Positions 1-20,731 of a stretch of DNA of 21,248 bases are shown here, piece by piece. Position 1 is the first letter of the stretch. Every line of letters begins with the position of its first letter. Below the pieces are notes generated by a model, which was not told the origin of the DNA, did no database searches, and saw only the letters and a program-made list of their open reading frames with translations. The stretch lies in the IMG/VR virus record IMGVR_UViG_3300005613_000475, positions 1 through 21,248 of that record; one strand, 5' to 3'. This DNA is from a virus. The position numbers were made by a program, and so were the translations under genes.

Positions 1-3000
1 GGCGAAGCCCTCGGCTACGGCGCTGGTGTGGGTGGCCTCATTCAAGCCCTCACTGATTTGGCTCTCGGTCGCCGTGCCAAGAAAGCCGCTGCCGCTGAAG
101 AAGAAGCACGGAAGGCTGAAGAAGCCGCCGCTGCCGCCGCTCCGGTACTTCCAGAAGGCGAAGGCGCTCAAGGTGAGTTGTTCCCACAAGAACTCGCTGA
201 GGCTGAAGAAGCTGAACTCGGCTTTGTAGGGCCACGTGCTGAAGCGGCACCAGAAGCCGCACCTGCCGAAGAGGAAGCCCCTGTCCAACCAGATATGATC
301 GACATGGCCGAGGAGCAGCAGCTTGAAGAGTTGTTTGCAGAAGACCGCCGCCGTGCCGATGAAGAAGAGACCCGCCAGATCGAAGATATGCTGGCAGCCG
401 ACGAAGCTGAAGCCACAGCGGCAGAAGCAGAGCGTCAGCGCATGCAGATGGAATCCGACATTGCCGAATTGACCGGTCGTCGTGAAACTGAGCAAGCGAA
501 AGCCAGCCAACAGCAACGTCTGGACATTTTGCTGCCCATCATTGATAACGTAGAAATCACCAATATCCCACGCAAATTCACCCAAGAGTTGAAGAAGCAG
601 GGGCTGCGTGAGACCGACATTAACGAAGATGAAAAGCGACTGATTAACCGCGCCTACGACATTCGTAAGGCAGAAGAAGTCGACACTACGTTGCCTGCGG
701 CTCCAGATGAGACTCCAGAAGGTTTAGTGCCTGAGAAGGCAACCACTCGTGAACCTGAACAGATGGGTTTCCCCGGTATGGGGCAGAAGCGCCTTCTGGA
801 GCGTGGCATTCTTGCCGAGCGTCAGGCACCGACCCCAGAGGCACCACAAACACTGGATGATACGTGGTTCGATTCGTTCGGTATCAAGAAGCAGGCTCCG
901 ATTCGTAAGAGACTGCAGGGTAAGACGTTTGACGATAACCGGGTAGAGATCCGTGGGGAGCTGATGGAATACGCAGCGAACCCAAACATCGCACCAGATG
1001 TCAGTCAGCGGATTCGCGATTACGCCAATTCTCCGTTATTTATGGAGCAGGCCGAAATGTTCGGCCCCCGTGGAGGGATTACAAAAGATGCTGCACGTCC
1101 ACGAACTAGACGCGAACCAACTGGAGTTAGCCCTGAAGGTGGTGTCGGACCTGTTGACGCAGGACGTACCCGTGGTGGTGCCGGACGAGTTGGAGCACCT
1201 GAACGAGCTGGACTGGGAGCTGCTGGAGGGGCTGCTGCACAGCCTGCAGGCAGAGAAGGAAGAAAGCCTGCTGCACTAGATGCGTTTACCGAACAAGCAA
1301 TTAAAAACGCGGAATCTGGTTCACGGGTCAAGTCCCGTGAAGTTGTCGTCGAGATGTCGATTGATGACTATCTAAACCTTGCTGCTCCGGGTACTGAGAA
1401 GGCAAAAACTAAAGGGTTAAAAGACGTAGATCAGTTCGATCAAATTCCACACTTGTCTACGGATGGTGAACAGGTCACCGGCCATGAAGGTCGTCATCGT
1501 GCCCGTCGGATGAAAGAACTCGGCTACACAACAATGCCGGTACGCATCATCGACAAGAATGTACGTTGGGGTGAAAACCCAAATACTCGTTTTGGCACGC
1601 TAAAAGCGGAAGAAGGAGATTTCTCTATTCCGCACCCCGTAAAGAGAGGGGACTATGGAACTTATTGGGATAGGGCCGTACGTGAAGAACCTAAAGCAGA
1701 AGTTAAGGAAGCTAAGCCTAAAACCGTTCGAGCTAAGCGCAAAGCTGCTGCGAAACCTGCTCCGCATAGGAAAAAGCGTGCTGCTGCAGTCGCTGCTAAG
1801 CCTGCTGGTCGAGTGGCTGAACAACCTGTTGAAAAGCCTACTCGTGCTAAGCCTAAAGTTACCCCTACCGAAAAAGCTGAAAAACCGGCTACTACTAGAA
1901 CTGCTGAAAAGGTAACACCTAAGAAAGCTGAGCCGAAAGTTAAGAAGGTCAAGGACACGCCGGATCAGGTACTCGAAGAAGTCGTATCGGATGAGGATCG
2001 TTTCGCTCAGGGTTGGGTGAAGAGCACCGATGCTAAGGGCAACGTGAAATGGGAACCACCCAAGAAGTCCACCACGACCAAGAAAGCTAAGGCTGCACCG
2101 AAAGAGCCGACCAAGGAAGAAGACGGTAACGCTGCGTGGCAAGAACTTGCTACCCCGCCGCTCAAGAAGTTCCATCAGGGCATTGCCCACATGTACGTGA
2201 TGCACGCCCCGCGTGAGATCAGCACGAAAGAAGATGCGAATAAGGTGCAGGCGCTGCTGAGAGGCAACCCGAAGACTATGAAAGCCGCCGATCGTGCGGT
2301 CTACAACTACTTCCTGAAGATGCCTCGGCAGGTAGACAACCTGATAAACATCGCGTTCGACTACGTATATAACACCCCGCAGTTCCGCCGTACCACAGAG
2401 ACGCTCGAAGAGGCCAAGTTCTTTGAGGGCATGAACGGTAAAAATGCTAAGGTGGCTTACGAATGGGTTAAGGAAAACCTAAGCCCTGAAGCGAATCGCG
2501 CACTGGACAAGTTTATACGTGCTTACGAAATTCAGCAGCGCCAGACCCGTGAAGAGGTACTGAACGCCATCCTGCTCGATAACGAAGCAATGTCCATCGA
2601 CGAGACGGTGCAGGATTATCTGGACGCTACGAATAAGGAACAGACCCTCAAGCTGCGTGCAGGTGAGATTGTCGAGATGGCGATGCCTCCGCACCCAGCC
2701 ATTGCTGCTCAGTTGGCAAACGGCGATCTACGCAAGGCGCTCGCTGGAATCGGCATTATGAACCCGAACACTGTGTTCGGTAGAGCCGCTACCAAGCTGG
2801 TCAACGCAGTCGAGAAGACTAAGGTAGAAGTTGTAGACGATTTGGTCGACGAAGCAGGTGAGCGCGTTGCGGGTCTGTACGATCCAAAAACTGACACTAT
2901 CCAGCTAGATTCTAGGCTGGGCATCAATACTCACACGATCCTCCACGAAGCGACCCATGCCGCAACTTCCCACGTATTGGCGAAGCCGGGGCATCCTGCT

Positions 3001-6000
3001 ACTAGGCAGTTGAAGCAACTCTACGAAGATGTGAAGGACTCGCTCGACACCGCGTACGGCGCACAGTCCCTTGATGAGTTTGTAGCAGAAGCGTTCTCTA
3101 ACCCAGAATTCCAAGCCAAGCTGCAGGCCATCAATCCGAAGGGTGAGCCGATTACAGCGTGGACCCGATTTACTCATGCTGTCGGCAACATGTTGCGTCG
3201 CCTGATTGGTATGGAGACTCGTGGACTGAAAACTGCATTAGACAAAGCTGATGTGACCATCACCTCGATTCTGTCTCCGGCACCGGATACCCGCAACGCA
3301 GGTCAGTTGTACGCCGCCTCGATGCTGGGTAAAGGTAAAGAAGTTCTCAACACTATCGGCCAACGCTACCAGAAGCTCGACCCACTGACGCAGGGTAAGA
3401 TTGACTCATTCCATGAGTTCTTCGCTCGCAAGATTCCGGGAACCGTGAAGAATGTAGTCCGTATGTCCCTACCGCTGAATGCCTTGGTGGACATCGCTCA
3501 GAAGTACATTCCGATGGCCCCTCGCGTCGATGCAGTGGTGCAGGAAAAGATGGGTTCCGAGAACCGTCGTAACCAGAAAATCGAGCCAATCATTCGCCGC
3601 GTAGAAGAGTGGTACAAGAAGCATCCTGACAAGTTAGACACACTGAATGAAGTGATCTACGCCAGTACACTGGATCAGGTAGACCCGTCAAAGCCACGCA
3701 ATTCCTACGCCGATAATGACCAGAAACTAGAAGTCTGGGACAAGCTGCAGAAGGACTGGAAGGCACTAGGCCCAGAAGGTCAGAGTGTCTATAAGCAGAT
3801 GCGGGATACGTACAAGAAGCTGTACGAAGAAATCGGCACCGTGCTTGAAGCCCGCCTAGCCGAAGGCGTAGAAAACGCTGATGTAGCTAAGAAGGTCAAG
3901 AAGGATATTTGGAACCGAATCTTTGATAACGGTGCAATCGAGCCGTACTTCCCACTGACACGTTCTGGTAAATACTGGCTGTCCTACAACGCATTTGATC
4001 CCCGTACTAATACTACGGAAATGTTTGTTGAAGCGTTCGAGACCGACCGTGCCCGTGACCGTGCGATTGCAGAGTTGAAGGCAGCAAAAGATGCAAAGGC
4101 TACCGACTTCCAGAAGTTTGCGAACCTCTCGCAAGTAAATTACAAGCGGGCACCGTCGACTTCGTTTATGAATACCGTGCTGAAAACACTGGATGTAAAC
4201 AAGGTCGATCCGAAAGTAAAAGAAGAAGTGATGACCTTCTTCATCAACATGCTGCCTGAAACCTCGTTCGCCCAAGGCTTCCGCCATCGTAAAGGCACCG
4301 CAGGTTTCAAACGTGACGCAGTGGGGGCGCTCCGCACTAAGTCTTACAATCTGTCCCGCCAGCTCGCGAATATCGAATATGGTGCGAAACTGGAAAACCT
4401 ACGCTCTCAGATCGACGAACACGTCAGGGAGCAGGGTAACGAAGAAACCACCGTGGGTTGGGCGGATGAACTGAATAAGCGCATCGACTTTGCCATCAAC
4501 CCGCATGTACCGATGTGGTCTAAGTTGGCTACGTCCTTCGGCTTTACCATGACGCTGGGCTTTAACGTGTCGTCGGCGATGGTCAACTTGACTCAGATCC
4601 CGCTGGTAGTGATGCCATATCTAGGTGGTAAATACGGATACGGTGTGACAACTAAAGCACTCGGCGCAGCGACTCGGGTGTTCACAAACAGTGGATTCGA
4701 CCGCGAAGTCGAGATGCTGGTGCCGACCGATTCGGGAGATGTGAAGCGAAAAGTCCGTGCCTTCCCGTCGTTGGACAACTATGACTTCGATGCTACGTCC
4801 ACCCCACCAGAAATTCGCCGCCTGAAAATGCTGTCCGAGGTTGCACTGGAACGTGGGCAGTTGAACCGCTCACTGACCTACGACATCTTGGATGTGGACG
4901 ACAGTGCTACTTTATTGACTAAAGTGAACGCGGCTTCTGGCTTCGTATTCCACCACGGTGAACGTATGAACCGTCAGGTGGCTATGGTCGCAACATATAA
5001 CCTCGAACTGGACGCGATGAAGAAAAAGGGTCGCAACATCGACGAGGCCGCCATGCGGGAAGCTGCGGAATACGCTGTTTACGTAACTGAACTGACCAAC
5101 GGCGGCACTGTAGCTGCTGCGGCACCACGTATCGCTCAGGGACCGCTGGGTAAAGTCTTGTTCATGTTCAAACGCTACGGCGTGTCCATGTACTACATGC
5201 TGTTTAAGACTGCTCGCGAAGCGTTGAAAGACGCCGATCCTGAAGTTCGTAAGATAGCGAAGCGCCAAATCGCGGGGATTTACGCTTCATCCGCACTCTT
5301 GGCAGGGGTGCAGGGTGTTCCGCTTTACGGTATTGCAGCGATGGCATACAACCTAATCCTCGCAGATGACGATGACGACGATTTTGATACTGCGGCACGT
5401 AAGTGGATGGGTGAAGTTCCGTACAGCGGGGCAGTAAACAACCTGCTCGGCGTGGAAGTTGCCTCCCGTGTCGGCCTCAGTGACCTCGTTTTCCGTGATA
5501 ACAAAGTACGAGATCAGCAAAGCGTAATGTTGTCACTCATGGAGACAATGGGTGGTCCGGTTCTGGGTGTAACCAGCCGCATGGAGCGTGGTTTATCCCT
5601 GATTAGTGAAGGTAATATTGACCGTGGTATCGAGCAGATGCTCCCCTCCGCGATCGGGAACGCTCTGAAGTCCGTTCGGTTCGGCACCGAAGGCGCTCGT
5701 ACATTACGTGGTGACCCGATAACAGGTGAACTTGGTCCGTGGAACACTTTCGCGCAGTTCTTTGGTTTCGCTCCAGCGGAATACACCCGCCAGCTTGAGA
5801 TCAACAGCAACACGAAGAAGATAGAGCGTAATATCCTACAGAAACGGACTAAGCTCCTGAGAAACTATTACATCGCAATGCGTAATGGCGATAGTAAGGA
5901 AGCCGCGGACATCATGCGTGAAATCGCCAGATTTAGTCGTGAGCATCCGGGTGTTGCGATTTCTGCGGATACGGTCAATCGGTCGATTCGTCGCCACTTG

Positions 6001-6093
6001 CAGACCAGTGCGGGTATGTACCACGGCATCACGATCAACAAGAGCCTACGCCCTGAGTTGATGCAGAACATCAGTGAGTACAACGGCGACTGA
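1..6093 (+). CDS. Giant polyvalent virion-type protein with metallopeptidase domain (5' end cut by window edge)
   Basis: The reading frame is open from base 1, so the N-terminus lies outside the window; residue numbers here count from the GTG at 28. About 2020 residues are visible. Residues ~15-170 are Ala/Glu-rich and probably coiled coil. A ParB-like stretch carries a GRHR motif (488-491). Residues ~345-415 are Gly/Arg/Ala/Pro-rich, and ~552-648 are Lys/Ala/Pro-rich like a histone tail. A zinc metallopeptidase motif HEATH lies at 973-977, with a downstream acidic helix (E1017/E1021) as likely third ligand; this resembles the MPTase-PolyVal domain of phage polyvalent proteins. The C-terminal ~900 residues are helical, with hydrophobic stretches near 1506-1535 and 1746-1779, a GPLGKVLFMFKRYG motif near 1706 and an Asp run at 1780-1785, recalling the large polyvalent-associated (LPD38-type) region. 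It is probably packaged in the virion and ejected with the DNA; this role is inferred. It is the last late gene before the convergent early genes. Confidence 0.85.
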   Translation, partial: GEALGYGAGVGGLIQALTDLALGRRAKKAAAAEEEARKAEEAAAAAAPVLPEGEGAQGELFPQELAEAEEAELGFVGPRAEAAPEAAPAEEEAPVQPDMIDMAEEQQLEELFAEDRRRADEEETRQIEDMLAADEAEATAAEAERQRMQMESDIAELTGRRETEQAKASQQQRLDILLPIIDNVEITNIPRKFTQELKKQGLRETDINEDEKRLINRAYDIRKAEEVDTTLPAAPDETPEGLVPEKATTREPEQMGFPGMGQKRLLERGILAERQAPTPEAPQTLDDTWFDSFGIKKQAPIRKRLQGKTFDDNRVEIRGELMEYAANPNIAPDVSQRIRDYANSPLFMEQAEMFGPRGGITKDAARPRTRREPTGVSPEGGVGPVDAGRTRGGAGRVGAPERAGLGAAGGAAAQPAGREGRKPAALDAFTEQAIKNAESGSRVKSREVVVEMSIDDYLNLAAPGTEKAKTKGLKDVDQFDQIPHLSTDGEQVTGHEGRHRARRMKELGYTTMPVRIIDKNVRWGENPNTRFGTLKAEEGDFSIPHPVKRGDYGTYWDRAVREEPKAEVKEAKPKTVRAKRKAAAKPAPHRKKRAAAVAAKPAGRVAEQPVEKPTRAKPKVTPTEKAEKPATTRTAEKVTPKKAEPKVKKVKDTPDQVLEEVVSDEDRFAQGWVKSTDAKGNVKWEPPKKSTTTKKAKAAPKEPTKEEDGNAAWQELATPPLKKFHQGIAHMYVMHAPREISTKEDANKVQALLRGNPKTMKAADRAVYNYFLKMPRQVDNLINIAFDYVYNTPQFRRTTETLEEAKFFEGMNGKNAKVAYEWVKENLSPEANRALDKFIRAYEIQQRQTREEVLNAILLDNEAMSIDETVQDYLDATNKEQTLKLRAGEIVEMAMPPHPAIAAQLANGDLRKALAGIGIMNPNTVFGRAATKLVNAVEKTKVEVVDDLVDEAGERVAGLYDPKTDTIQLDSRLGINTHTILHEATHAATSHVLAKPGHPATRQLKQLYEDVKDSLDTAYGAQSLDEFVAEAFSNPEFQAKLQAINPKGEPITAWTRFTHAVGNMLRRLIGMETRGLKTALDKADVTITSILSPAPDTRNAGQLYAASMLGKGKEVLNTIGQRYQKLDPLTQGKIDSFHEFFARKIPGTVKNVVRMSLPLNALVDIAQKYIPMAPRVDAVVQEKMGSENRRNQKIEPIIRRVEEWYKKHPDKLDTLNEVIYASTLDQVDPSKPRNSYADNDQKLEVWDKLQKDWKALGPEGQSVYKQMRDTYKKLYEEIGTVLEARLAEGVENADVAKKVKKDIWNRIFDNGAIEPYFPLTRSGKYWLSYNAFDPRTNTTEMFVEAFETDRARDRAIAELKAAKDAKATDFQKFANLSQVNYKRAPSTSFMNTVLKTLDVNKVDPKVKEEVMTFFINMLPETSFAQGFRHRKGTAGFKRDAVGALRTKSYNLSRQLANIEYGAKLENLRSQIDEHVREQGNEETTVGWADELNKRIDFAINPHVPMWSKLATSFGFTMTLGFNVSSAMVNLTQIPLVVMPYLGGKYGYGVTTKALGAATRVFTNSGFDREVEMLVPTDSGDVKRKVRAFPSLDNYDFDATSTPPEIRRLKMLSEVALERGQLNRSLTYDILDVDDSATLLTKVNAASGFVFHHGERMNRQVAMVATYNLELDAMKKKGRNIDEAAMREAAEYAVYVTELTNGGTVAAAAPRIAQGPLGKVLFMFKRYGVSMYYMLFKTAREALKDADPEVRKIAKRQIAGIYASSALLAGVQGVPLYGIAAMAYNLILADDDDDDFDTAARKWMGEVPYSGAVNNLLGVEVASRVGLSDLVFRDNKVRDQQSVMLSLMETMGGPVLGVTSRMERGLSLISEGNIDRGIEQMLPSAIGNALKSVRFGTEGARTLRGDPITGELGPWNTFAQFFGFAPAEYTRQLEINSNTKKIERNILQKRTKLLRNYYIAMRNGDSKEAADIMREIARFSREHPGVAISADTVNRSIRRHLQTSAGMYHGITINKSLRPELMQNISEYNGD
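1088..1279 (+). CDS. Small protein embedded in +1 frame inside the giant late gene
   Basis: A 63-codon ORF lies wholly within the giant gene, shifted by one base. ATG at 1088 follows a GGAGGG (1072-1077) with about 10 nt spacing, slightly long for a ribosome site. By hand count 55 of 63 codons end in G or C (CTG, GAG, GTG, GAC), and the segment is about 61% GC. The product is acidic and helical, with heptad-like leucines, and ends in EKEESLLH; it reads like an ordinary small phage protein. The main frame over the same bases is low-complexity Gly/Arg/Ala/Pro, as expected when another frame is under selection. I cannot assign a function. It could be an overprinted gene, or a once separate small gene absorbed when the giant ORF expanded. 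The alternative is a compositional artefact. Confidence 0.5.
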   Translation: MLHVHELDANQLELALKVVSDLLTQDVPVVVPDELEHLNELDWELLEGLLHSLQAEKEESLLH

Positions 6094-12940: not shown

Positions 12941-13607
12941 ATCCGCTTCTCCCGTTGTGGGGACACTCCAGCACAACACAGTGGGCCTTACACAACCCCG
13001 ATGTGCGGGGATTCCAGACGTCGTTTTCGTACGCAGTCTTCATGCGATTGTAATCGGTCAGCCACTTCTCCCATAGTCTCGGCTCGTCCTCTTTACTGTA
13101 TTCGGCCTTGACAAAATCCTGACTCACCACGAACACCAGTGCGGCCTTGACGTGGGTCACCTGCGGGAAGTGCTTGAATGTGGCAAGTGCCATCAACTCC
13201 AACTGCCCCCGGTCAGCGTACTTGGCCGACTTCCCCGTCTTGTAGTCCAGCACCTTGGCCTTGTCTCCGTTCAGGATCATCAGGTCAGCAATCCCTCGCC
13301 ACCAAACATCTTTGTCCTTGAACCCGCACGGTTCCAGATTCTCGGTCAGCCCCATCTCGTACTCACACAGCTTCTCCCCCTCCATCGCATTAAGTTTCTC
13401 TAATGCGGATTGGGCGAACTTGAACTGTGGTGGGATCGGCGTGCCATCCCGCACGTACTCCTCGGCGGCTTTGTGGAACGCTGTCCCGTACAGCATCGCC
13501 TCGGTTTCTTTCTCCTTGTAATCCCGTGCCACCTTGAGGTGGTAGAACTTCTTCGGGCACTGCTCGAACGTCTTGATACTTGAGAAAGACCACGCAGGGA
13601 TTTTCAT
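12930..13607 (-). CDS. Cas4/RecB-like PD-(D/E)XK exonuclease with iron-sulfur cysteines
   Basis: A 225-residue nuclease of the PDDEXK superfamily. Nuclease motifs in order: GTAFHKAAE (H45), GIADLM (D108), LDYKTGK (D121, K123), and QLELMALATF with Q135. C17 (in CPKKFYH) plus a C-terminal trio C206, C210 and C215 match the four-cysteine iron-sulfur cluster of Cas4/AddB-type exonucleases. It is expected to degrade DNA ends or process single strands during replication and recombination. It is not evidence for CRISPR: no Cas1, Cas2 or array is visible. Its ATG overlaps the polymerase stop (ATGA), implying coupled translation with the polymerase. Confidence 0.9.
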   Translation of the reverse strand: MKIPAWSFSSIKTFEQCPKKFYHLKVARDYKEKETEAMLYGTAFHKAAEEYVRDGTPIPPQFKFAQSALEKLNAMEGEKLCEYEMGLTENLEPCGFKDKDVWWRGIADLMILNGDKAKVLDYKTGKSAKYADRGQLELMALATFKHFPQVTHVKAALVFVVSQDFVKAEYSKEDEPRLWEKWLTDYNRMKTAYENDVWNPRTSGLCKAHCVVLECPHNGRSGYAL

Positions 13608-16273
13608 TCACAATCTCCGTAGCTATTACCGACACCGGATTCACAGTTTACAGGTAATCCGTATGCCCAGTCAGGAACCCAACGCATGCACTCTTCGATG
13701 TAGGCACGGGCTTCGTCGACATCGGCCTCGCGTACACAACACGTGATGGCATCATGCACGGTCAGTACAACCCGATACTTCTTCGCGATCTTGAGCATCT
13801 GCTCACCGATAATGCACCGTGCGACTGCTTGGCACACATTTTCAATCACCTTCCCGCCGTAGATCCGTGTCCGTCCTCTACGAGTTTTGTAGCTGTACTC
13901 ATACCCACGCTCACCTGCTTCGGCGCTGAGGTCGTCATAGCGCATCAAGAGACCGGAGGGTAGGCGGATTGCTGATTCACTCGGCACAACTTCAAGAACC
14001 CCGGCTCGACCGAAGTATGTAGCGTCACCCCGTGCTAAGTTTTCAAGCATGAACTGCGCCTGCTTCCATAGCCCAGTGATCTCATTGTTTGTTCTACGGT
14101 AGATGTCAATAACACGGCGGGCCTCGTCTAAATCCATATCAAACCCAAACGTCTTTAACTGTGCTTGGAACTTGATCGCCCCCATACCGTATCCACAGTT
14201 ATGTGCTATCACCGGACCGGATTCGGTTAAGATCGTGAAGCGATTCCTCGGCCCTGCGTAAGCGATGTCGTAAGTCTGCAATAGTCTTTTCGAGGGTTTC
14301 GACCCTTCGCTTGTTCCGCATGTTTTCACTTCTGGTTGCGAACCGTATGTTGCCGGGTTCATACCCTTTATCATTGTCGATCCGATCCATTTCAAGTTTT
14401 GGATTGTCCCACCCATCCAATGTTTGCACAAATTTGAGAAACTTGGTCCTGTCGATTCGCCATTCTTCGTAGACATAGATACCCCTACCCCCGTAATCTG
14501 AGTATCTATTGGCGCTTGTGTTATGGCAGCGTGAGATAGCTGATGATAGCCTGTTAAGTAGCCTAGTCCTGTGTTTATCGTCTGGCATAGCTTTTGCGTA
14601 CTTCCAATAACGCTTTTGCCTGCCTGCCTCACGTGCGCATACTGGGCAACGGGTGGTTTTGAAGTTTTTGAAGTTGTGTTGGTCGACGGTGTACTCGGCA
14701 GTGCTGCAATCGCACGAGACAATGAGAGCTTTAACTCCACCCCGTGCGCCGCGTACATAGCCTGATACGGTAATTTTTCCTGACCGGTGTCCAATGCTTG
14801 GGATAGGGTGCACGCGTCTTGCACCACTGATCCTGTCTCCTTCCATTCGTTCCCGCACAATATCTTGTGGTCTGGTGTTAGCCAACTCCCGCAAAGACTC
14901 AATGTTTCTTTGGTGCCTTTCGGCACTAATCCTTGATGGCATACAAACTCCTCTCCATCCCACACGCGATCTGAAAGTGTGATCTGTTCTATAGGCTTCC
15001 ACCCAGAGTCACACAGTACCATTGTGCCAGCACCTATACAACCAAGGATAGTCGTCTTACCAACAAAGCGTTGATCCTTGGTAACCTCGTCAACAGGCAC
15101 ACCATAGATGTTAGACGCCATCTTCTTGTACACATCTTTACCTTGGGTGAACGCTTCGACCAGATCGTCCTGCCCTGCCAGCCATGCAAGTACACGGGCT
15201 TCGATCTGCGCAGAGTCCGCGTCGATTACTTTGAATCCTTTGGGTGCGATGATCGACTGCTTGAGTTTCTTTGCGTTCGGCCCACGGCTCGGCAAATTCT
15301 GCATGTTGATCTTGTCGTCACCACCCCAACGGCCAGTGTGTGCTGCGTAATAACGTACAGGTACAGGCAGCGGCCCACGCTTCGCGATGTCGATAAACCG
15401 TTGCGTGCGTGTTTCTTCCAGTGTGGACTTCGTACCGAGACGCGCTGCTACTAATGACTGCACGCGGTCATCTTCGTGGTCAGCCAGTGCCTTGAAGTCC
15501 TCATCACTCTTGGCAAGTGCCAGAGTTTCTTTACCGGTGGTAGGGCTGATCTTCATCGGTGGCTCAACACCCAACTCTTTCAGTAACTCAGCAAATTTCG
15601 GGTTGGACATCAGATCGTCTTTAGATACCCCCGCATCTTCCAGCAGCATATCTTTACGATCTTTAACTGCCTGCAAGTGTGCTTCCAGCAGCGGCAGATC
15701 CAACTCCATGATGGGGTCAATGAACATGCGCAGGGTCACATCAATCAGCTTCATCTCCTGCTTCGGGAAGTTCTTGACCATCGTCTTAAACAACTTATAC
15801 GTCAACTCCACATCGTTGACGCAGTAGTCACCATACCTGCTCAGTTCTTCTTCGCTGAAATCGGCACGGCGTTTACCCAGTGCGTTGAGTACCTCAGTAC
15901 CCTTCTGTCCAAGACCATACCGTTCGGTCAGTGCCTTGAGAGATCCGCCAACTTCGACACCATGAATAGCACGGCCCATACAGAGAGTATCAGCCCAAAC
16001 GCGAGGGTGAACATCAAACAGCCAGCTAAGTATGGCCCCGTCGAACATGGTGTTGTGCGCCAATGCCATTGAATCGGCCCAGTCGAAGGTATGCAGCCAC
16101 TTCTTGATCTGTTCATGCGTACCACTGGCCCACTCCGTCGCTCCGTTGTTTACCTTTATCGCAACGCCGATAACTTCAAAATCATCAGAGCGTATGTATT
16201 CCTCTGTGGTCATCTTCGACAACGAAAACTCTTTCGAGTAAAACGTCTCGAAGTCTATTGTTATTAAGTTCAT
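13604..16273 (-). CDS. Family A DNA polymerase with 3'-5' exonuclease, interrupted by an intein
   Basis: An 889-residue precursor; removing the intein (residues 412-692) leaves 608 residues, normal for a phage Pol I-type enzyme. The proofreading exonuclease shows D7/E9 (TIDFET), N74/D78 (AHNTMFD) and Y150/D154. Polymerase motif A is DSAQIEAR with D353. Motif B is split by the intein: R402...K406...LG, then CGYG after splicing. Motif C is TVHDA with H840/D841; the usual HDE glutamate is alanine. It is the replicative polymerase of the phage. ATG at 16273 has AAGGA about 8 nt upstream and overlaps the preceding small gene; the stop overlaps the Cas4-like gene. Activity should require splicing, since the intein sits inside the nucleotide-binding O-helix. 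Confidence 0.95.
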   Translation of the reverse strand: MNLITIDFETFYSKEFSLSKMTTEEYIRSDDFEVIGVAIKVNNGATEWASGTHEQIKKWLHTFDWADSMALAHNTMFDGAILSWLFDVHPRVWADTLCMGRAIHGVEVGGSLKALTERYGLGQKGTEVLNALGKRRADFSEEELSRYGDYCVNDVELTYKLFKTMVKNFPKQEMKLIDVTLRMFIDPIMELDLPLLEAHLQAVKDRKDMLLEDAGVSKDDLMSNPKFAELLKELGVEPPMKISPTTGKETLALAKSDEDFKALADHEDDRVQSLVAARLGTKSTLEETRTQRFIDIAKRGPLPVPVRYYAAHTGRWGGDDKINMQNLPSRGPNAKKLKQSIIAPKGFKVIDADSAQIEARVLAWLAGQDDLVEAFTQGKDVYKKMASNIYGVPVDEVTKDQRFVGKTTILGCIGAGTMVLCDSGWKPIEQITLSDRVWDGEEFVCHQGLVPKGTKETLSLCGSWLTPDHKILCGNEWKETGSVVQDACTLSQALDTGQEKLPYQAMYAAHGVELKLSLSRAIAALPSTPSTNTTSKTSKPPVAQYAHVRQAGKSVIGSTQKLCQTINTGLGYLTGYHQLSHAAITQAPIDTQITGVGVSMSTKNGESTGPSFSNLCKHWMGGTIQNLKWIGSTMIKGMNPATYGSQPEVKTCGTSEGSKPSKRLLQTYDIAYAGPRNRFTILTESGPVIAHNCGYGMGAIKFQAQLKTFGFDMDLDEARRVIDIYRRTNNEITGLWKQAQFMLENLARGDATYFGRAGVLEVVPSESAIRLPSGLLMRYDDLSAEAGERGYEYSYKTRRGRTRIYGGKVIENVCQAVARCIIGEQMLKIAKKYRVVLTVHDAITCCVREADVDEARAYIEECMRWVPDWAYGLPVNCESGVGNSYGDCE
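14198..15040 (-). mobile_element. Intein (281 residues) in DNA polymerase motif B
   Basis: It begins at C412 (block A: CIGAGTMVLCDSGWKPIEQI) and ends at H691-N692 followed by C693 of the C-extein. Block B is LTPDH with T466 and H469. Block F is TYDIAYAGPRNRFTIL, and block G is VIAHN|C. All residues for canonical class 1 splicing are present. The middle (~500-660) is Ser/Thr-rich with no LAGLIDADG or other endonuclease motif in this frame. Instead, an HNH endonuclease is encoded out of frame over the same DNA. The insertion point, between LG and CGYG of motif B, is the kind of invariant active-site location inteins favour. Confidence 0.95.
14199..14942 (-). CDS. HNH homing endonuclease nested out of frame inside the intein
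   Basis: A 247-codon ORF, offset by one base from the polymerase frame and entirely within intein DNA. ATG at 14942 follows GGAGAGGAGTTTGT, a very strong ribosome site; an upstream GTG at 15002 has none and is rejected. The TAA stop (14199-14201) overlaps the intein's final His-Asn codons. The product has a Cys pair set C77, C79, C99, C102 (zinc-ribbon-like). An HNH domain follows: a RLSSAISRCHN helix, YGGRGI (150-155), and DRIDNDKGYEPGNIRF (186-201) then N-x-R-N-K-R, the widespread phage HNH signature. Residues ~213-240 are a charged coiled coil. It probably cuts intein-less polymerase genes to promote intein homing; the target is inferred from location. Confidence 0.9.
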   Translation of the reverse strand: MPSRISAERHQRNIESLRELANTRPQDIVRERMEGDRISGARRVHPIPSIGHRSGKITVSGYVRGARGGVKALIVSCDCSTAEYTVDQHNFKNFKTTRCPVCAREAGRQKRYWKYAKAMPDDKHRTRLLNRLSSAISRCHNTSANRYSDYGGRGIYVYEEWRIDRTKFLKFVQTLDGWDNPKLEMDRIDNDKGYEPGNIRFATRSENMRNKRRVETLEKTIADLRHRLRRAEESLHDLNRIRSGDST

Positions 16274-19546: not shown

Positions 19547-20731
19547 TTAATCTTTAATGTAAACGTACTTACCCACGGTCGGCTTGAACCGTGGCGGCCC
19601 AGCGATACACCACAACAGCGGGCTGGCCCAGCCTTTGCCCCAGTCCATGACGTAACCATCAGTCAGCACCACAACAGCTTGTGGTTTGATCTGCTTCTCA
19701 GCCATGTAGTCGATGACACACTGCGGGTCAGTACCCCCACCACCTAGCGGACGTGTTGATTTGGTAATGTTCGCAACCTCAGACTGGTCGTATACCTCAT
19801 CACCTGCAACACGCGAACCCCAGTACAAGATACGCACTCGATTCGGCTTGGCAGTCTCGGCAACACCACGCACCTCTGTCAGAAATTGTGTCAACTCTCG
19901 TGTGCCAATTGATCCAGACGTGTCGATGGCAATTACTAAGTCGTCAACGGTCTCACTGATACCGGATGGTAAGTACACACCCGACGATACAAAGCGCCGA
20001 TTGGGTCGCGCCCATGTCGAATAGTCATTGCCGCTGCATGTGCTAGATACAAAGTCGCGCAACACCTCACGCCAATTAACTTGCGGCTGCAACAAGGCAT
20101 CAACATCACGGGTACTTGCACCTTTGATCTTACCTGCTGCTAACGCACCTTGGCGGATGGCCTCGTCGATCTCACGCTCCAGTGTCTGTGACTCCTCGGC
20201 GGTCATCTCCTTGGCATCTTCCCAGCCATGCTCGTCCATGCCACCGTCACCGTCGCCACCACCGTCACTGTCCTCACTCTCGTCACCCTCGTCACGCAGT
20301 ATCTTGAACACCTGCGCTGCGGTCATGTCACGGAACCGCTCGTCGAGTAGTCCCCCCTCGGGCATAGTGGCAAAGCCATCGGCACAGTCGTCGGCGATCT
20401 TCTGGTTGATAACGTAATCACACGCCATGTTGGCTAACTTACTGTCCTCATCCCACAGGTTGCGCCATGTGGTCAGATGTTTGTATAGCTTGTGGTACGT
20501 CTCGTGCAGCACAAGAAAGCGCAGTTCAGCATCTGTCAATTTCTCGACAAAGGTACGCCCAAACTTGTCATCACGTCCGTTGGTGTACGCGGTCTGTACT
20601 TCGTCGTCGATCGTCTTGTCACCGATCATCATCACGCCAGCCAGTGCGGTGTAGCGTGGCTCACCCATGATCTTGACGATGGCCTTACTCAGCCGCTGCT
20701 CAGCGGTCAGTTGTTTACCTAGCATTAACAT
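19547..20731 (-). CDS. Metallopeptidase-like / VWA-domain protein (DUF2201-type)
   Basis: A 394-residue protein with the layout of DUF2201-type VWA-like proteins. The N-terminal putative metallopeptidase domain carries LHETYHKLYKHL (H76, E77, H80), with D105 (MACDYVIN) a likely third zinc ligand. A low-complexity Asp/Gly/Glu linker spans ~148-168. The C-terminal VWA-like domain has a complete MIDAS: D270-x-S272-x-S274 in AIDTSGSIG, T334 (GGGGTD) and D358 (LTDGY). Such proteins are usually encoded beside a MoxR-type AAA+ ATPase, as here, and the pair acts as a chaperone or metal-dependent remodelling system. AGGAGAACGAC precedes the ATG. In a phage the target is unknown. Confidence 0.9.
   Translation of the reverse strand: MLMLGKQLTAEQRLSKAIVKIMGEPRYTALAGVMMIGDKTIDDEVQTAYTNGRDDKFGRTFVEKLTDAELRFLVLHETYHKLYKHLTTWRNLWDEDSKLANMACDYVINQKIADDCADGFATMPEGGLLDERFRDMTAAQVFKILRDEGDESEDSDGGGDGDGGMDEHGWEDAKEMTAEESQTLEREIDEAIRQGALAAGKIKGASTRDVDALLQPQVNWREVLRDFVSSTCSGNDYSTWARPNRRFVSSGVYLPSGISETVDDLVIAIDTSGSIGTRELTQFLTEVRGVAETAKPNRVRILYWGSRVAGDEVYDQSEVANITKSTRPLGGGGTDPQCVIDYMAEKQIKPQAVVVLTDGYVMDWGKGWASPLLWCIAGPPRFKPTVGKYVYIKD

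Follow-up and report, generated by a model that had tools for sequence, protein, structure and literature searches.

The stretch of DNA analyzed here, a 21-kb virus fragment from IMG/VR (21,248 nucleotides; hereafter the window, whose numbering is used throughout), carries on its minus strand a family-A DNA polymerase gene (polA, 13604–16273) that is interrupted by an intein, and within this intein lies an open reading frame (ORF) for a putative HNH-type homing endonuclease in another frame of the same strand. The polA ORF encodes 889 amino acids with the intein and 608 after splicing (Pfam DNA_pol_A, E = 7.8e-32), and the 608-residue spliced polymerase aligns end to end with inteinless relatives at 73–77% identity. 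The intein comprises 281 codons (14198–15040, minus strand; polymerase residues 412–692) inserted between GKTTILG and CGYGMG in the motif-B (O-helix) region of the polymerase, and it is defined by invariant splicing residues, a Hint fold, and exact empty sites. The residues Cys412, Thr466, His469, His691, and Asn692 and the +1 residue Cys693 are all present, and the first-pass annotation of this DNA had given both these residues and its coordinates correctly.

The AlphaFold model of the intein, which was computed with the family alignment, reveals a Hint fold composed of 2 confident halves (residues 1–90 and 251–280, predicted local distance difference test score (pLDDT) of ~96) separated by a disordered middle region (residues 98–247, pLDDT <50). 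The N-terminal splicing half contains blocks A, N2, and B (codons 1–74; 14819–15040, minus strand; pLDDT of 96–97 over residues 1–90) and is also delimited by alignments, and the C-terminal splicing half contains blocks F and G (codons 251–281; 14198–14290, minus strand; pLDDT of 95–96 over residues 251–280) with the conserved YDIAYAGPRNRF...HN. The top Foldseek matches of the model are the AceL NrdHF, Mtu RecA, gp41-1, and Npu inteins (probabilities of 0.97–1.00), and the Mtu RecA intein was also retrieved by a profile search (E = 1.5e-4). Protein splicing of the window intein is predicted from the intact residues and this fold. A nuclease was sought in the intein's own frame and none was found, in agreement with the first-pass annotation. 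Over the non-nuclease linker, the translation of the intein frame (14198–15040, minus strand) matches PHROG_93 (E = 7.6e-15), which is labeled “endonuclease”; this database family was apparently built on the shadow frame.

The nuclease ORF encodes 247 amino acids (14199–14942, minus strand) in the +2 frame relative to the intein. Its translation matches the PHROG HNH family phrog_374 over residues 50–214 (E = 2.5e-35), and the matches to the PHROG HNH endonuclease families 374, 3377, and 2081 range from 2.5e-35 to 3e-22. The AlphaFold model of this frame has a mean pLDDT of 83.8 and consists of an N-terminal helix, a confident core (pLDDT of 93–96), and a C-terminal helix of 41 residues. The core zone, which is composed of a zinc-ribbon-like CxC...CxxC region and the nuclease, occupies approximately codons 82–246 of the intein (14301–14795, minus strand), where constraint falls on the HNH frame alone and the intein frame amounts to an open, disordered linker. 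The confident HNH core and the disordered middle of the intein together indicate that the nuclease core sits in the intein linker and that only the extensions at its 2 ends overprint the splicing blocks: the N-terminal extension overlaps the N-terminal half of the intein beyond codon 33, and the C-terminal helix overlaps the C-terminal splicing half. The earlier statement that the HNH gene overlaps blocks B and F thus holds for these extensions and not for the nuclease core, which lies between the blocks. The TAA stop of the HNH frame is built from the CA(T AA)C of the intein's terminal His-Asn codons, as had been proposed from the window; the stop falls within these codons in 23 of 67 relatives, and the remaining relatives terminate earlier, in block G. 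In Pectobacterium phage PhiM1 (L205), a free-standing protein related to the HNH protein hidden in the intein is encoded directly upstream of a DNA polymerase gene and overlaps its start.

For comparison, we assembled 73 non-redundant inteins with the same phase (de-duplicated by k-mers), comprising the window, IMG/VR contigs, and isolate phages, including Sodalis, Pseudomonas, and Vibrio phages; phages of Salmonella and Escherichia coli also carry the polA intein. Cys1, Thr55-x-x-His58, the terminal His-Asn, and a Cys or Ser at +1 are kept in all 73. The HNH frame, far from being riddled with stops in these homologues, is open through the nuclease in 71 of 73, and the third frame holds 8–40 stops. 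The maintenance of the same phase in 71 relatives rules out a sequencing frameshift or a pseudogene. One of the 2 exceptions, L040, has a stop within the nuclease frame. The other, L004 (2143–2574; identical to L089), is a natural mini-intein of 144 residues from which an in-frame deletion has removed the HNH core, and it keeps both Hint halves together with the codons of the HNH C-terminal helix. In Aggregatibacter kilianii (L107), 2 polA inteins are apparently located close together, and an HNH-like ORF lies in another frame inside the second.

The distribution of the element is that of a mobile one. All of the 80 nearest IMG/VR polymerases, which are 64–79% identical around the site, are uninterrupted at the exact codon, and the best 25 of these 80 are 73–77% identical over the whole protein. 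The residue at the +1 position is Ala (58) or Cys (22) in the inteinless polymerases and always Cys or Ser in the carriers. Within the window's intein family, 2 insertion sites located 12 nucleotides apart in the motif-B region are used. The flanks of the intein in the Salmonella phage SETP3 (Jerseyvirus) form a sharp recombination mosaic: (i) compared with the inteinless polA of VSt10, SETP3 is 88–100% identical upstream and 93–100% identical over codons 300–425; (ii) across the 50 codons that surround the intein site, this identity is only ~50%; and (iii) near the site, SETP3 resembles Sodalis phage SO-1 (Dhillonvirus), with inteins that are 83% identical and most extein stretches 50–75% identical. 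Such a mosaic is what co-conversion during homing would be expected to produce, and the flanks point to a transfer at polA between Jerseyvirus and Dhillonvirus.

These same signatures, that is, patchy presence, many empty sites, 2 sites 12 nucleotides apart, and flank co-conversion, bear against the most persistent alternative, in which the HNH protein is translated but no longer acts as a homing nuclease and has instead been domesticated to bind DNA or to regulate, or serves as a nicking factor directed against competitor phages. The conserved zinc ribbon, the long conserved C-terminal helix, and a non-canonical catalytic motif would suit such a protein, and we regard a domesticated function as unlikely in view of the homing pattern.

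The ATG of the HNH ORF at 14942 is preceded by GGAGAGGAGTTTGT, and a Shine–Dalgarno-like GGAGAGGAG with its spacer (14943–14964, minus strand) is encoded by the intein motif D-G-E-E-F. Across 67 relatives tested, the ATG is located at +98 in 43 and at +92 in 24; L010, L011, L062, and L086 are among the few relatives without an ATG at either position. The bases of the Shine–Dalgarno match are those that encode the conserved D-G-E-E motif, and the strength of the match in the +92 group is mildly above the expectation from codon usage (z = −1.1, n = 24). In 12 relatives, the HNH frame has a stop 3 or 9 nucleotides upstream of the ATG. These stops leave almost no room for programmed ribosomal frameshifting out of polA, by which the HNH frame would be reached as a fusion of the polymerase N-terminus, the intein N-terminus, and the HNH protein, and they favor internal initiation, as does the conservation of the ATG at +98 or +92. 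In the window itself, the HNH frame is already open ahead of the ATG, from about nucleotide 32 of the intein on, which would permit such a shift; frameshifting keeps a small share of the probability, slightly below that of a domesticated protein. The sequences argue for independent translation of the HNH ORF from the internal ATG, which we infer here.

The division of constraint between the 2 frames was resolved by the variability of codon positions in 24 gap-free sequences that are all 843 nucleotides long. The third intein-codon position is the most variable in codons 1–60 and 261–280, and in codons 81–240 the most variable is the second intein-codon position, which is the third HNH-codon position (0.58–0.61 from codon 101 on). 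OLGenie-style estimates in the core are 0.27 [0.23–0.32] for NN/NS of the HNH frame and 0.79 [0.67–0.95] for NN/SN of the intein frame, and the intein-frame ratio is 0.30–0.41 in the A/B and G zones. The four-fold diversity of the intein frame is reduced to 0.28 in codons 61–80 and 0.34 in codons 257–270, compared with 0.62–0.70 in the exteins and 0.71 in the last 11 codons; these depleted four-fold sites indicate that both frames are constrained there. Stop expectations were obtained from codon shuffles that keep the protein of one frame while stops are counted in the other. With the HNH protein kept, 213.5 intein-frame stops were expected and none were seen; with the intein protein kept, 58.8 HNH-frame stops were expected in the B-block zone and none were seen, and 18.5 were expected in the F-block zone and 1 was seen. 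No selection on the hydropathy of the intein-frame linker was seen (GRAVY of −0.10 compared with −0.12 in shuffled sequences, mean z of +0.44). The intein frame governs codons 1–60, the HNH frame governs codons 81–240, and both are constrained at approximately codons 61–80 and 241–270. In the middle of the element, the intein frame is under almost no constraint at the amino-acid level and needs only to stay open. Each frame is thus under purifying selection of its own in part of the element, selection is not confined to one of them, and synonymous variation of the intein frame is reduced at the overlaps. The earlier proposal that each nucleotide serves both proteins is wrong for ~57% of the element, namely codons 81–240.

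A nonfunctional ORF whose conservation is the mere shadow of intein conservation is very improbable on this evidence: the shifted translation would appear conserved regardless wherever the splicing blocks are conserved, and codons 34–60 do not separate the 2 frames, but codons 81–240 vary most at the third HNH-codon position and their translation matches free-standing phage HNH families. Equally improbable is a group I intron that houses the HNH ORF and in which the apparent intein is incidental, a reading prompted by the wording “type I self-splicing intron” in the SO-1 GenBank record and by the frequency of HNH genes in group I introns and rejected because the Rfam covariance search returned no intron family at E ≤ 1 (one chance small RNA match only), the intein frame is open in 73 of 73 with invariant splicing residues and a Hint fold, and the third positions of intein codons 1–60 vary as protein-level selection predicts.

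A second group of inteins has the nuclease in the opposite phase. When genomes were scanned with the intein profile, bacterial contigs (L104, L105, L108, and L110) with an HNH frame in the +1 phase were retrieved, and such opposite-phase inteins (these 4 together with L114, L117–L119, and L122–L201) are located at several sites of polA, in helicases, and in other genes. In 52 of 72 non-redundant inteins from IMG/VR and isolate phages, the +1 frame is the only one with an HNH motif, the intein frame having none; carriers include the Streptococcus phage Javan101, Gardnerella phage AB1, Caulobacter phage GB2A, and Shewanella phage SFCi1. Shuffles predicted 394 intein-frame stops in 53 of the +1-phase inteins, and 0 were seen. 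In the HNH tree, the nucleases of the window's group form one clade, which is placed with free-standing phage HNH proteins and not with the second group (support of 100/99); subject to the rooting and long branches of this tree, its topology indicates at least 2 separate captures. Upstream of position 2501, L110 contains a possible second intein (ending ...VAGN before CHTMW) in the same helicase gene.

We interpret the element as a mobile intein in which the homing nuclease has a gene of its own, nested in another frame, with a probability of just under 0.8. Ribosomes translating polA would pass straight through the element, and, given the intact residues and fold, the 2 Hint halves would fold around the disordered middle, splice out, and restore the DNA polymerase. 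Other ribosomes would initiate at the internal ATG, aided by the purine-rich DGEE codons, and produce the 247-residue zinc-ribbon/HNH protein. At the O-helix codons of inteinless polA alleles, this putative nuclease would introduce a cut or a nick, and the whole element would be copied with its flanks during repair, as the co-conversion supports. The most likely origin is the out-of-frame entry of an HNH gene, a relative of the free-standing phage HNH genes, into the linker of a mini-intein; the ends of this gene may later have been extended over splicing blocks B and F by overprinting. Almost as probable, in our view, is the broader proposition that a widespread, largely unrecognized class of phage inteins has its nuclease uncoupled from splicing by the use of another frame, and that this class arose independently at least twice (in the +2 phase in one polA family, and in the +1 phase in polA, helicases, and other genes) through HNH capture into mini-intein linkers. 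With each capture, on this view, the linker became a shadow frame, open and disordered, and the splicing blocks were overprinted with new protein ends.

Several observations weigh against this interpretation. Neither Pfam nor NCBIfam assigns an HNH domain to the shifted-frame protein. Nothing significant was found among PDB sequences with the HNH protein or by Foldseek with its model, the HNH enzyme PacI being at rank 4 (E = 0.63). Since these searches were silent, the HNH label rests on the PHROG families and annotated free-standing relatives. The canonical catalytic residues are not matched: the motif reads MDRID..GYEPGN, with an invariant Arg187 where DHID has His (Asn198 is also invariant). 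The missing domain call and the Arg in place of the usual catalytic His render cleavage uncertain. Selection for a strong private ribosome site, such as the one described in the first-pass annotation, is unsupported in the +98 group to which the window belongs: the Shine–Dalgarno-like sequence exists but is dictated by the DGEE codons and is no stronger than expected from codon usage (z = −0.06, n = 43). The relatives were collected via the intein frame, so the openness of the intein frame is partly ascertained and that of the HNH frame is not. Finally, the four-fold diversity of codons 34–60, which encode HNH residues 1–28, is 0.438 and inseparable from the 0.465 of the intein codons preceding the HNH ORF.

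Elsewhere in the window, a 2021-residue protein with an LPD39 polyvalent-protein domain is encoded at 28–6093 on the plus strand, the replication genes being on the other, and a DUF2201 metallopeptidase/VWA-like protein, here in a phage, is encoded at 19547–20731 (minus strand).

Since the 2 functions share DNA and not a polypeptide, nuclease production can be tuned separately from splicing and from expression of the host gene. L004 and L040 suggest that decay of the nuclease leaves behind a mini-intein that still functions. The more than 120 non-redundant elements in 2 phases provide a data set on the origin of overlapping genes, the division of constraint between frames, and the capture of selfish genes, and many carriers are cultivable phages (of Salmonella, E. 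coli, and Streptococcus), which makes translation and homing directly testable. Annotation of a single frame hides such nucleases and mislabels intein-frame shadows as proteins, as in the PHROG “endonuclease” match of the intein frame.

In canonical large inteins, such as PI-SceI, PI-MtuI RecA, and the HNH-type inteins, the nuclease is a domain of the spliced-out polypeptide. The window intein shares with them the Hint splicing domain, an endonuclease between blocks B and F, and homing, and differs in that its nuclease is a separate ORF in another frame. In split inteins (fractured genes of the gp41-1 type), the host gene is physically split and a free-standing endonuclease gene lies between the halves; the endonuclease is likewise separate from the splicing polypeptide, whereas the window intein is encoded in one ORF, which the nuclease overlaps. 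The GenBank records of phages APSE-1 (P45/P46) and Sodalis SO-1 (gp38/gp39) annotate a DNA polymerase and an HNH coding sequence that overlap in another frame, with no comment on dual coding; SO-1 belongs to the same intein family and phase as the window, and APSE-1 has the other phase. The first-pass annotation knew of no described example. Our literature search found a single described analogue, the non-splicing ShiLan element, and an actinobacteriophage preprint on a “non-canonical architecture” (bioRxiv 10.1101/2025.01.02.630785), the contents of which lay outside the search, could already describe out-of-frame intein nucleases and take priority. The ShiLan element is an out-of-frame HNH gene in a stop-free, in-frame insertion in a mycobacteriophage DNA methylase; it is without splicing motifs, was judged to be neither an intein nor an intron, and is predicted to stay in the methylase, and its nuclease has a GTG start and no detectable ribosome-binding site (Arsenault, Gosselin & Gogarten 2025, PMC11855218). 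Both elements are insertions in phage genes that are open in the host frame and hide an HNH gene in another frame, both have a nuclease stop that overlaps the end of the insertion, and both have a mobile distribution. In the window, unlike in ShiLan, the insertion is an intein that retains every splicing residue and the Hint fold, and it is located in a DNA polymerase. The out-of-frame HNH insertion itself is already known, and what is new here is an intein whose homing gene nests out of frame.

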